This document shows positions 1,954 to 6,456 of a stretch of 53,358 nt of DNA, one piece after another. Where the stretch lies: positions 1 through 53,358 of the forward strand of contig JADGOO010000002.1 of assembly GCA_017882905.1 (NCBI GenBank). Direction: 5' to 3'. Within the stretch, counting starts at the first letter, position 1; each line of letters begins with the position of its first letter. The stretch comes from Acidimicrobiia bacterium. GTDB lineage: Bacteria > Actinomycetota > Acidimicrobiia > IMCC26256 > PALSA-610. The notes under the pieces were generated by a model. The model saw nothing but the letters and a program-made list of their open reading frames with translations. It was not told the origin of the DNA and did not search any database. The position numbers and the translations under genes were made by a program.

Positions 1954-3291
1954 GTGGTTCTGAAGTTCGCAGATTGTGAGCTCGATCTGGCCCGCGTGCT
2001 CCTGCGCCGCGGCGGTCGCGAGATCAAGCTCGAGCCTCAGGTGTTCGACGTGCTTGCGCATCTCGTCCAGCGCCGCGGTGAGGTCGTGCGCAAGGAGGAG
2101 CTGCTCGACGAGATCTGGGGAAATCGCTTCGTGAGCGAGTCGGCCCTGACGACGCGCATCAAGTCGGTACGCCAGGCGGTCGGCGACGACGGCAACCGCC
2201 AATCGATCATCCGGACGGTGCACGGGAAGGGCTACGAGTTCGTGGCGCCCGTCGAGGAGGTCGACGGCGCCGAACAACCAACCGGGACCGGCGCGATCCC
2301 GGGGCTCCCCGCCGCGGTGCAGCCGCTCATCGGACGCGACCTGCTGCTCGACCTGCTCGTAGGCGCGCTCACCACGCATCGTCTGATCACGCTCGTGGGT
2401 CCGGGCGGTGTCGGCAAGACGTCGCTCTCGTTGGAGCTCGCACGGGCGGTGGCTGCCAACTACCCCGACGGCGTGAACCTCGTGGAGCTCGTGAGCGTGG
2501 TCGACGAAGACGCCACGATCGCGGCCGTCGCGACGGCGGTCGACGTGAACGTGCGCCGCGGCAGCACGATCGAAGACGCGATACTCGAGATGCTGCGGCC
2601 GCGGAGCTCCCTGCTGGTCCTCGACAACTGTGAGCACTTGATCGAACCCGTCGCCGAGCTCGTGAGTCGCATCCTGCGCGAAGCGCCGCTGGTGTCGATC
2701 GTGGCGACGAGTCGTGAACCACTGGCCGTTCCGGGCGAACGCGTGTGGTCGGTCGAGCCGCTCTCCACGGCCGGGGCGACCGGCCTCGACGAGCACGGCC
2801 TGATGAGCATCCCGGCCGTCGCGCTGTTCGTGGAGCGGGCCCGGGCCGCCGACCCCGAGTTCGTCCTCGACGCGACGACTGCGCCCGTGGTGGTCGAGAT
2901 CTGCCGGCGCCTCGACGGCATCCCACTCGCGATCGAGCTCGCCGCGGCGCGCGCCCGTGTGGTCGACGTGGCCGAGATCGCGCGGCGCCTCGACGAGCGG
3001 TTCGGGCTCCTGAAGGCGATGCGCCGAGGTAGCGATCCGCGCCACCGCACCATGCACGACGCGATCAGCTGGTCGTACGACCTGCTCGCACCCGATGAAC
3101 AAGAGCTGTTCACCACGCTCTCGGTGTTCGCCGGACCGTTCGATCTCGGTTCGGCCGAGTCGATGTGCACGACGGGCGATGCGCTCGATCTGCTCACGCG
3201 GCTCACCGAGCGCTCGATGCTCTCGGTACGCCGGCCCGCCGGCACCGGCACCCGCTACGAGGTCTTGGAGACGCTGCGCGAATACGGCTGA
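1954..3291 (+). CDS. winged-helix/ATPase transcriptional regulator, N-terminal part ended by an in-frame TGA
   Basis: Residues 1-95 form an OmpR/PhoB-type winged helix (VLKFADCELDLARVLLRRGG ... IIRTVHGKGYEFVAPV). Residues 120-420 form an AAA/STAND-like ATPase with Walker A VGPGGVGKTSL, Walker B LLVLDNCEHL, VATSREPL sensor and RLDGIPLAIELAAAR, as in large LuxR/AfsR-like regulators. The frame stops at TGA 3289-3291, straight after LETLREYG, where relatives normally continue with an Arg-rich helix into TPR repeats. Those repeats lie next door in the same frame (3322-4467). The start chosen is GTG 1954 with GGGGA upstream; the ATG at 1891 would add an unlikely Arg/Pro-rich tail. Confidence 0.8.
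   Translation: MVLKFADCELDLARVLLRRGGREIKLEPQVFDVLAHLVQRRGEVVRKEELLDEIWGNRFVSESALTTRIKSVRQAVGDDGNRQSIIRTVHGKGYEFVAPVEEVDGAEQPTGTGAIPGLPAAVQPLIGRDLLLDLLVGALTTHRLITLVGPGGVGKTSLSLELARAVAANYPDGVNLVELVSVVDEDATIAAVATAVDVNVRRGSTIEDAILEMLRPRSSLLVLDNCEHLIEPVAELVSRILREAPLVSIVATSREPLAVPGERVWSVEPLSTAGATGLDEHGLMSIPAVALFVERARAADPEFVLDATTAPVVVEICRRLDGIPLAIELAAARARVVDVAEIARRLDERFGLLKAMRRGSDPRHRTMHDAISWSYDLLAPDEQELFTTLSVFAGPFDLGSAESMCTTGDALDLLTRLTERSMLSVRRPAGTGTRYEVLETLREYG
3289..3291 (+). other. in-frame premature TGA splitting the regulator gene
   Basis: The reading frame before this codon (from 1954) and after it (to 4467) is the same, with no other stop. A C in place of T at 3289 would make it CGA (Arg) and restore one protein of about 837 aa. 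This is either a nonsense mutation, a sequencing or assembly error, or a real split. Confidence 0.8.
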
Positions 3292-3321
3292 ACCCGCCTC
3301 GGCGATGCTCGGGCGGGCGAG

Positions 3322-4467
3322 ATGTTCCAGGCTCATGCCGCACACTTCGCGGCGGAGGCGGCTTCGGTGCAGGCCGAGCTGTGCGGTCCCGGCGAGCCGG
3401 GCGCGATGGCACGCGCGGAGGCGTCGTTCGCCGATCTGCGCGCCGCGCAGCGGTTCGCGGTCGAGACCGGTGGCTTCGACGAGGCGTTCGGTCTCATCGG
3501 ATCGATTCGAGAGTTCGCGATGCGCGCCATGCGCTACGAAGTGTTCGCCTGGGCCGACGTGGCCGCCCGCGCGCCCGGAGCCGGCGACCATCCGTTGCGG
3601 CCCGTGCTGACGGGAATGCGGTCGTACGGGGCGTTCGTGTGGGGCGAGTTCGACCTGGCCGTGTCGCTCGCCCACGAGGCGCGCGACCTCGAAGCAACGC
3701 TCGGCGTTCATCCCAGCGGTCTTGCCGAGCGCGTGCTCGCCAACGTGCTGTGCATCGTCGGGCGCGGCGCCGAAGGCGATGCGGAATCAGCGCGACAGGT
3801 CGAGGTTGCCGAAGAGTCGGGCAATCGCTCGAGCATCGTCCACGCGTGCTACATGGCCGCGGTGGCCCGCAGCTCGGTCGGCGACGACGTCGCCGCCGGC
3901 CGCCTCGTGGCCCGCGCCCGGTCGGAGGCGACGAAGACCAACAGCCCGACCGACCTGGCGTCGGCGTACGTGGCGGAGGGCTTCGCCGCCCGCAGCGATG
4001 ACGATGCGCTCGCCGCGTTCGTGCGCGCCGAGCAGCTCGCGACCGCGGCCGGCAACCGCTGGATGGCCGCGTTCGCACGCACCGAAGCAAGCGGCCTGCT
4101 GGTGCACCGCGGCGCGCTCGACGAGGGGTGCGCGCGCCTCGCCGAGATGGTCGCCGTCTGGTACCGAGCCGGCGAGTGGTCCCAGCAATGGCACACGCTC
4201 TCGCGGTGCGTGATCGCACTGCACCGTGTCGGCCACACCGCGCTCGCCACCGAGCTGGTGGGCGCGATCGAAGCCCATGCGATGCTCGGTGTCGCGCCGA
4301 TGAGCCCCACGCTTCGTCTCCTCGCCTTCGAGACGCGCGACGTGCTGATCGACGAGCTGGGCGATGCGCAGGCCGCGGAGCTCCGGGCGGCCGGCGCGTC
4401 ACGTCCGGTCGAGGACATCGTTCGCCGCACGCGCAACGGCTTGCTCGGACGGCCACTCGACACGTGA
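3322..4467 (+). CDS. TPR-like C-terminal part of the split winged-helix/ATPase regulator
   Basis: This is 381 aa of Ala-rich paired helices (for example ARSEATKTNSPTDLASAYVAEGF and FVRAEQLATAAGNRWMAAFAR) that look like degenerate TPR repeats, the usual C-terminal sensor region of ATPase regulators such as the gene just upstream. It is in the same frame as 1954-3291, separated only by the TGA at 3289. It might be made separately by re-initiation at ATG 3322, which has GGGCGGGCGAG directly in front, but on its own it would have no DNA-binding or ATPase domain. The last 69 nt overlap the convergent monooxygenase gene. Confidence 0.7.
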   Translation: MFQAHAAHFAAEAASVQAELCGPGEPGAMARAEASFADLRAAQRFAVETGGFDEAFGLIGSIREFAMRAMRYEVFAWADVAARAPGAGDHPLRPVLTGMRSYGAFVWGEFDLAVSLAHEARDLEATLGVHPSGLAERVLANVLCIVGRGAEGDAESARQVEVAEESGNRSSIVHACYMAAVARSSVGDDVAAGRLVARARSEATKTNSPTDLASAYVAEGFAARSDDDALAAFVRAEQLATAAGNRWMAAFARTEASGLLVHRGALDEGCARLAEMVAVWYRAGEWSQQWHTLSRCVIALHRVGHTALATELVGAIEAHAMLGVAPMSPTLRLLAFETRDVLIDELGDAQAAELRAAGASRPVEDIVRRTRNGLLGRPLDT

Positions 4468-5727
4468 CACCACACCGATCCGCGCGCCCGCTCTCGTGCG
4501 AGCCACGTCGCCGAGGTACGCACGGACGTGGGCGGCCAGGTCGCCGGCGTCACGGCCGAAGCCGGCGATCAGGTTCGACCGACGGCGGCGCATGAACGGC
4601 AGACCGAGCACATAGAGGCCGGGCATGCGAGCCACGCCCCCGTCGTGGACGACCCGATGGCGATGATCGAACGCCGCGGCATCCAGCCACGGGTACGTGG
4701 GGCGGTAGCCGGTGGCCCAGACGACGGTCGAGAACGCCGCGAGGTCGAGGCTCGTCGGCGGGGCCGGCACGACGGTCGGTTGCGCAGGGCGCGGCGGTCC
4801 GACTTCGCCCTCGAGCCCGTTGGACGTGACGAACTCGTCGATGCGGTGCAGCAGGCGCGCTTGCTTCAGATCGGCGTTGGCGACCAGGCTCGCGAGCGCA
4901 CCGGAGCACTGCGCGGTGCGTCCCGAGATCCCCACGAGCCGGCCGACGCACCGCACGCCCTGCGCGCCGAGCGCGTTCAGATCGAGGTCGCTGTGCTCAT
5001 TCGTGCCGACAAGCTGCACCGAGGCGTGGCGCCGCGCGCGGTCAATGTCGTCGACTTCGTCGTAGCGCTCGTCGAGCTGGCCGATGGCGTCGAGCCACCA
5101 GTACACGTCGCGTTCCCGGTACGAACGCGGGAGGCGCACGTGCTCCCCTACCGCGATCGTGACCGCGCGTCCACTGCGCTGCAGCTCGGAGGCGATCTGC
5201 ACGCCGGACGCCGACGCACCCACCACGAGGATCTCGCCATCGGGGTCAAGCTGGGCCGGCCGCCGGTAGTCGAGCGCGGTGAGCTGATCGATGCGGGTGG
5301 GAAGCTCGGCTCGGAGCGCGGGGACACGCGGTTCGCTCGATGCGCCGGTTGCCGCGACAACCACGTCGCACTGCCATGTGCCCGCGTCGGCGATCACAGC
5401 GAAGCCGTCGGCGGTGCGCCGCACTGCCGCGACCGTCACCCCGGTGAGCACCGGCGGCTCGAAGCGCCGGCGGTACGCCTCGAGGAACGCGACGGTCTCC
5501 TGCGCGGTCATGAAGCCGTGCGGGTCGCCGCCTCGGTAGCCGTGACCGGGCAACGCGTTCATCCAGCTCGGGGTGAGCAGGCGCAGGGAGTCCCAGCGCT
5601 CTGTGCGCCACGAGTGCGCAAGGTCACCGCGTTCCAGCACCACATGGTCGATGCCGGCGGTAACGAGGTGATGACTCATCGCGAGTCCGGCCGGGCCGGC
5701 ACCGACGATCACTACAGGCACACGCAT
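4399..5727 (-). CDS. flavin-dependent monooxygenase (CzcO/FMO-like NAD(P)H oxidoreductase)
   Basis: This 442-aa protein has an N-terminal FAD-binding Rossmann motif, VVIVGAGPAGLAMSHHL, and a second dinucleotide-binding motif, EILVVGASASGVQIASEL, at about residue 170. Between them are the LTPSWMNALPG region and the ATG-type motif VVVAATGASSEPRVP, and near the C-terminus FSTVVWATGYRPTYPWL. This is the layout of CzcO-like flavoprotein monooxygenases that hydroxylate or Baeyer-Villiger-oxidise small substrates. The start is ATG 5727 with GAGGAG 6 nt upstream. It lies 38 nt after the OsmC gene and is probably co-transcribed with it. Its 3' end overlaps the convergent regulator gene by 69 nt. Confidence 0.85.
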   Translation of the reverse strand: MRVPVVIVGAGPAGLAMSHHLVTAGIDHVVLERGDLAHSWRTERWDSLRLLTPSWMNALPGHGYRGGDPHGFMTAQETVAFLEAYRRRFEPPVLTGVTVAAVRRTADGFAVIADAGTWQCDVVVAATGASSEPRVPALRAELPTRIDQLTALDYRRPAQLDPDGEILVVGASASGVQIASELQRSGRAVTIAVGEHVRLPRSYRERDVYWWLDAIGQLDERYDEVDDIDRARRHASVQLVGTNEHSDLDLNALGAQGVRCVGRLVGISGRTAQCSGALASLVANADLKQARLLHRIDEFVTSNGLEGEVGPPRPAQPTVVPAPPTSLDLAAFSTVVWATGYRPTYPWLDAAAFDHRHRVVHDGGVARMPGLYVLGLPFMRRRRSNLIAGFGRDAGDLAAHVRAYLGDVARTRAGARIGVVSRVEWPSEQAVARAANDVLDRT

Positions 5728-5765
5728 CACCATCTCCTCGTTACCGCCGTGGCTCGCCAGGGGCG

Positions 5766-6329
5766 TCAGGCGAGCTCGACTTGGACCAGCGTCGGGTTCG
5801 TCACGATGTCGAACACCGCCGACCGCTTCTGCGATTGGGCCACGATCGCGGCGATGTCGTCGCGCGACGCGTCGGCGTCGATGTCGTACGTGACCTTGAT
5901 CGCGTCGAATCCGTTGCGCACATCGCCGTCGATGCCGAGGATGCCCTGCAGGTCCATGCCGGCTTCGACGGTCGCCTTCACCGAGCGCAGCTGCACGCCG
6001 CGATGTGTCGCCACCGTCGCCACGCCCGCAGTGAGGCACGACGCCAGTGCGGCGAGGACGATCTCGGGCGGTGTGGCGCCATTGTCGTCCGACGCGAACA
6101 CCTCGGGGTGATCCGCCTCGATGCAGTACGCCTGGCGGTGCGCGTGCTCCTGGCCGAGGCCAGAGAAGTCGGTGATCGTGGTCCGGCTGTTCGTTCCCCG
6201 CACCCATTCGCAGCGGGCGCGCCACTGGAACTGCGCGGCCGCGGGCGCGTCGGTGAGAGCCTGACGAGCACCGCGCAAGGCGTCGATGTTCACGCCGTTG
6301 TCGACGGTCGGGGCGTCGGTCTGGGTCAT
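5766..6329 (-). CDS. OsmC family peroxiredoxin-like protein
   Basis: This 187-aa protein carries the OsmC/Ohr-type fold: TPPEIVLAALASCLTAGVATVATHRGVQLRSVKATVEAGMDLQGILG, with the conserved Cys in LASCLTAG. Family members reduce organic hydroperoxides with paired cysteines. Only this one clear catalytic Cys is visible, so the peroxidase role is uncertain. The start at ATG 6329 is preceded by AGGAG. It is the first gene of a two-gene unit with the monooxygenase and diverges from the methyltransferase gene, with a dyad sequence in between. Confidence 0.85.
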   Translation of the reverse strand: MTQTDAPTVDNGVNIDALRGARQALTDAPAAAQFQWRARCEWVRGTNSRTTITDFSGLGQEHAHRQAYCIEADHPEVFASDDNGATPPEIVLAALASCLTAGVATVATHRGVQLRSVKATVEAGMDLQGILGIDGDVRNGFDAIKVTYDIDADASRDDIAAIVAQSQKRSAVFDIVTNPTLVQVELA

Positions 6330-6421
6330 GTCGATTCTCCTGTTGCTCGGACCGCGGACCATGCGTGCCGCGGCCAACGCCAGAGTCCACGGTGCGGGCG
6401 GCCACGTCATGGAGGCGGGCT

Positions 6422-6456
6422 GGAGATCCACTGACGATCGCCGTCAACGAATCTCC
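6422..6456. promoter_or_regulatory. imperfect 35-bp dyad between divergent OsmC and methyltransferase genes
   Basis: Outer arms GGAGAT/ATCTCC and inner arms TGACG/CGTCA are arranged symmetrically around ATCGC; 12 of 15 positions pair. The site lies 93-127 nt from the OsmC start and 40-74 nt from the methyltransferase start, so it could be an operator for both. No cognate regulator is identified. Confidence 0.4.

Follow-up and report, generated by a model that had tools for sequence, protein, structure and literature searches.

A STAND regulator gene at positions 1,954–4,467 of the window (the whole 53,358-nucleotide stretch of DNA analyzed here) has probably acquired a single nonsense change in the recent past, through ordinary mutation rather than a new genetic mechanism. 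The change would be either fixed in the strain or one variant within the population that was sampled for the assembly. With position 3,289 as the most likely end of translation, the predicted product has 445 residues and retains the DNA-binding and ATPase parts of the regulator without its arm and sensor.

One coding frame with a single in-frame stop

Between the GTG at 1,954 and the TGA at 4,465–4,467, the plus strand carries one frame with a single break, a TGA at 3,289–3,291. Translation in frame 1 yields 445 residues, the stop, a further 391 residues and the terminal TGA, so that the gene consists of an open part before the stop (1,954–3,291) and a same-frame continuation behind it (3,292–4,467). 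The length of the continuation proves little by itself, since open runs of 391 codons are not rare in this window of 69% GC (52 of 1,237 stop-to-stop runs). We instead base the single coding frame on coding bias and homology. GC content at the three codon positions was 0.742, 0.456 and 0.876 before the stop and 0.762, 0.545 and 0.867 after it, and a self-trained codon score marked two adjoining coding stretches in the same frame. Together with the translation and a gapless alignment to orthologs, this bears out an earlier sequence-only reading, according to which the frame is intact on both sides of the TGA.

Uninterrupted orthologs were found in three cases, L029, L030 and L036, each with one open frame of ~840 codons that aligns without gaps across the stop. 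Amino acid identity to the window copy before and after the stop was 73% and 63% for L029, 61% and 51% for L030, and 65% and 57% for L036. The family is sparsely distributed: among 395 genomes of the class, L036 came from the only other genome with the second half at E ≤ 1e-60, the full-length L029 and L030 were recovered from GTDB contigs together with one partial ortholog, and other genomes of the same order gave no match at E ≤ 1e-150. A sequence related to the sensor part (49% identity) was also present on a contig binned as Woeseiaceae (Gammaproteobacteria; L031:2-628), which is probably a mis-binned actinobacterial contig.

At the position of the stop, all three orthologs encode arginine (CGG, CGC and CGC). 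The sequence-only reading had proposed a C-to-T change in a CGA codon; the relatives do carry the expected residue, but their codons are CGG or CGC, and the CGA ancestor is therefore presumed. Across the window's clear genes, 97 of 1,054 arginine codons are CGA.

The gene neighborhood is conserved as well. A convergent gene for an FAD-dependent oxidoreductase, whose relatedness to the MSMEG_0569 family stays below that family's cut-off, adjoins the regulator in the window (4,477–5,763, minus strand), and a convergent flavin oxidoreductase lies next to all three orthologs. Upstream of the oxidoreductase gene is one for an OsmC-like protein (5,766–6,431, minus strand), which is also found beside L029. 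Given the arginine at the stop position and the shared oxidoreductase, the ancestral gene was a single one encoding a protein of ~840 residues. As far as these sequences reach, the regulator thus appears to be one gene that is interrupted in this genome only. The conserved neighborhood suggests that its natural target may be the oxidoreductase–OsmC pair. In actinobacteria that are only distantly related, a flavin oxidoreductase (with the OsmC-like gene in the window and L029) recurs beside this rare STAND regulator, which also points to a possible functional unit.

Domain architecture around the stop

The sequence-only reading had described a large ATPase regulator, which is correct and can be sharpened: the locus encodes a STAND regulator with an OmpR-type winged helix, an NB-ARC-like ATPase, and then an arm and a TPR-like sensor. 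Before the stop, residues 21–96 form an OmpR/PhoB-type winged-helix DNA-binding domain (Trans_reg_C, 68.1 bits), followed by a NOD module with a P-loop (GPGGVGKT), a Walker B motif (LLVLDNCEH), TSRE, a GIPL motif and a winged-helix domain. The NB-ARC profile scored 31.4, 24.3 and 26.3 in the three orthologs and 23.1 in the window copy, just under the cut-off of 23.5. The profile search matched no Pfam or NCBIfam family to the part after the stop.

We took the domain layout from an AlphaFold model of ortholog L029 rather than of the window copy, built from an alignment of six sequences. The model (mean pLDDT 77.8, pTM 0.73, with low confidence for the winged-helix effector) places the effector first, followed by the nucleotide-binding domain (NBD), a helical domain, a winged-helix domain and then helices to the C terminus. 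Its top match in the PDB was 6MFV (E = 1e-13), followed by Apaf-1 (1Z6T, E = 2e-9), and 8BOB was matched too. The window copy aligns with L029 over the NOD region, comprising the NBD, the helical domain and the C-terminal winged-helix domain. In the model, the stop corresponds to L029 residue 452 and would fall inside helix 445–453, the last helix of the NOD winged-helix domain. The all-helical arm and repeat-type sensor, which are joined to the NOD in the orthologs, occupy the region behind it, and the chain of the window copy ends before both unless the UGA is read through. This makes the window copy an interrupted gene of the regulator family rather than an intact member.

Age of the stop and competing explanations

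Long freedom from selection should have left the second half decayed, and we saw no such decay. Compared with L029, L030 and L036, the window copy has private residue changes at 11 of 439 positions before the stop and 13 of 387 after it (Fisher p = 0.54), a proportion that is the same for the private changes of L029 (22 before and 20 after; p = 0.80). Third-position GC shows the same picture, at 0.867 after the stop against 0.876 before. While pN/pS is slightly higher in the second half for every pair of orthologs, this includes pairs without the window copy and is thus a property of the domain. These comparisons suggest that the change arose very recently, represents a variant within the population or reflects an error in the consensus, or that a product of the second half is still being translated. 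Stop codons inside bacterial reading frames have been found to be widespread, and most of them last no longer than SNPs do (PMC7918605); a recent nonsense change is therefore the plain expectation. A literature search on pseudogene rates in metagenome-assembled genomes found none. The sequence-only reading had offered four possibilities without ranking them; the fresh pseudogene, or nonsense change, emerges as the best supported, while readthrough and re-initiation gained no positive evidence.

The main rival, which we consider unlikely, is an error in the consensus or assembly, with the gene uninterrupted in the organism itself and the stop present only in the draft assembly. In its favor, the genome is a draft of 259 contigs, and the interruption is a lone one at base level in a gene that otherwise shows the full coding signal without decay. 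However, nothing in the surrounding sequence positively points to an error. Errors in a short-read consensus are rare, and only a small share of random ones would create a stop.

An undecayed second part would equally be expected if it were still under selection, as a readthrough or split product. It is quite improbable that the stop marks a split that is being maintained, with effector–NOD and arm–sensor made as two proteins through re-initiation or a leaky UGA and the sensor acting in trans. Slightly more doubtful still is the specific form of this idea, a functional two-part arrangement in which an arm–sensor protein starting at the ATG at 3,322–3,324 works in trans with the effector–NOD protein. 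The sequence-only reading had listed re-initiation at this ATG among its possibilities, and the open reading frame is present: 30 nt separate the TGA from the ATG, which opens a frame of 381 residues, and in the L029 model the stop would lie close to a domain boundary. Against this, the methionine at 3,322 is not conserved (CTC, GTG and TTG in the three orthologs), and the Shine–Dalgarno-like stretch upstream of it, GGCGGGCGAG, is weak. Nor do the relatives all keep a stop with both halves conserved, as in a true split, since none of the three orthologs has a stop there.

Programmed or leaky readthrough of the UGA, yielding some full-length protein as a form of low-level expression control, is very unlikely. 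Leakiness has been described for UGA stop codons (PMC7918605) and the second half is undecayed, but the stop is missing from every ortholog (n = 3). TGA is the main stop codon of the window, ending 40 of its 45 coding stretches, which speaks against recoding. A suppressor tRNA was considered and rejected, as neither the 30 best-scoring tRNA loci nor the 8 tRNA-Sec-like loci examined include one with a UCA anticodon.

A change of genetic code or weak termination at UGA was likewise rejected. The gene for release factor 2, prfB, was not found in the assembly, which is scored 100% complete, and it exceeds the cut-off in 46 of the 58 genomes of the order. In relatives prfB lies just upstream of ftsE, and here contig C105 carries ftsE from its base 3 onward; the secA–prfB part had no good match in this genome. 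The apparent loss is thus best explained by the contig break, with prfB most likely in an assembly gap, and lends readthrough no support. As a side observation, release factor 1 on contig C155 reads PET in a motif that is usually PAT or PVT.

Selenocysteine insertion at UGA 3,289, considered after a selA–selB pair was found (contig C156, L121:6381-10350), has a negligible chance of being correct on the grounds of residue and SECIS geometry: the site is never cysteine in the orthologs, whereas nearly all selenoproteins have cysteine homologs (PMC13188914), and the GC-rich hairpin that follows the UGA (3,293–3,317, plus strand) has its apical loop 12 nt from it rather than the 16–37 nt that the SECIS model for bacteria calls for, does not exceed shuffled sequence in stability (z = −1.15 for 52 nt) and lies in a region without an Rfam match at E ≤ 10. 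No tRNA-Sec scored above the cut-off in the assembly either, although that gene may be in an assembly gap. Separately, the presence of SelA and SelB suggests that the organism probably makes selenoproteins.

Significance and comparison with known systems

Beyond the locus itself, the significance of a recent nonsense change is small. What the analysis adds is a record of a small and rare actinobacterial family of STAND regulators, conserved next to a flavin oxidoreductase, and of one copy in which a single stop near a domain boundary has taken away the arm and sensor. Annotations should treat the two open reading frames as a single, interrupted gene. Should there be strains of both kinds, some with the stop and others lacking it, comparing them would amount to a natural experiment on the role of the arm and sensor.

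The closest structural parallels are the TPR-sensor STAND ATPases PH0952 (6MFV) and MalT of E. coli, in which a NOD of NBD, helical domain and winged-helix domain is followed by a helical arm and a TPR-like sensor, as in ortholog L029; 8BOB, also matched by the L029 model, is a maltose-system entry. The P-loop, Walker B and GIPL motifs are present here too. The DNA-binding domain of MalT is a C-terminal LuxR-type HTH, whereas that of the regulator described here is an N-terminal OmpR-type winged helix. A second difference is that the arm and sensor of the window copy are cut off by the stop. In PH0952 and MalT these parts clamp the NBD and keep the protein off until the inducer binds (PMC6468293).

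In its N-terminal OmpR-type DNA-binding domain, followed by NOD and TPR, the family also resembles AfsR, a large SARP of Streptomyces. The bacterial transcriptional activation (BTA) domain of SARPs was not found: neither the window copy nor any of the three orthologs has a Pfam match to it after the winged helix and ahead of the NOD. The NOD and TPR of AfsR restrain its effector, and AfsR without the TPR retains DNA binding and activation in vitro (PMC10936776); the stop described here removes the arm as well as the TPR sensor. In known relatives, it is the arm and sensor, missing here, that keep the NOD in its closed state and bind inducer. By analogy with the clamp of PH0952 and MalT and the restraint in AfsR, the truncated product may have lost inducible control and would be either non-functional or unregulated.

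Finally, the interrupted gene resembles the nonsense-interrupted genes of Belinky et al. 2021 (PMC7918605) in having a single in-frame stop, an otherwise intact frame and no decay. The stops in that study were shared by orthologs of at least two species, whereas the one at 3,289–3,291 is seen in one genome only.
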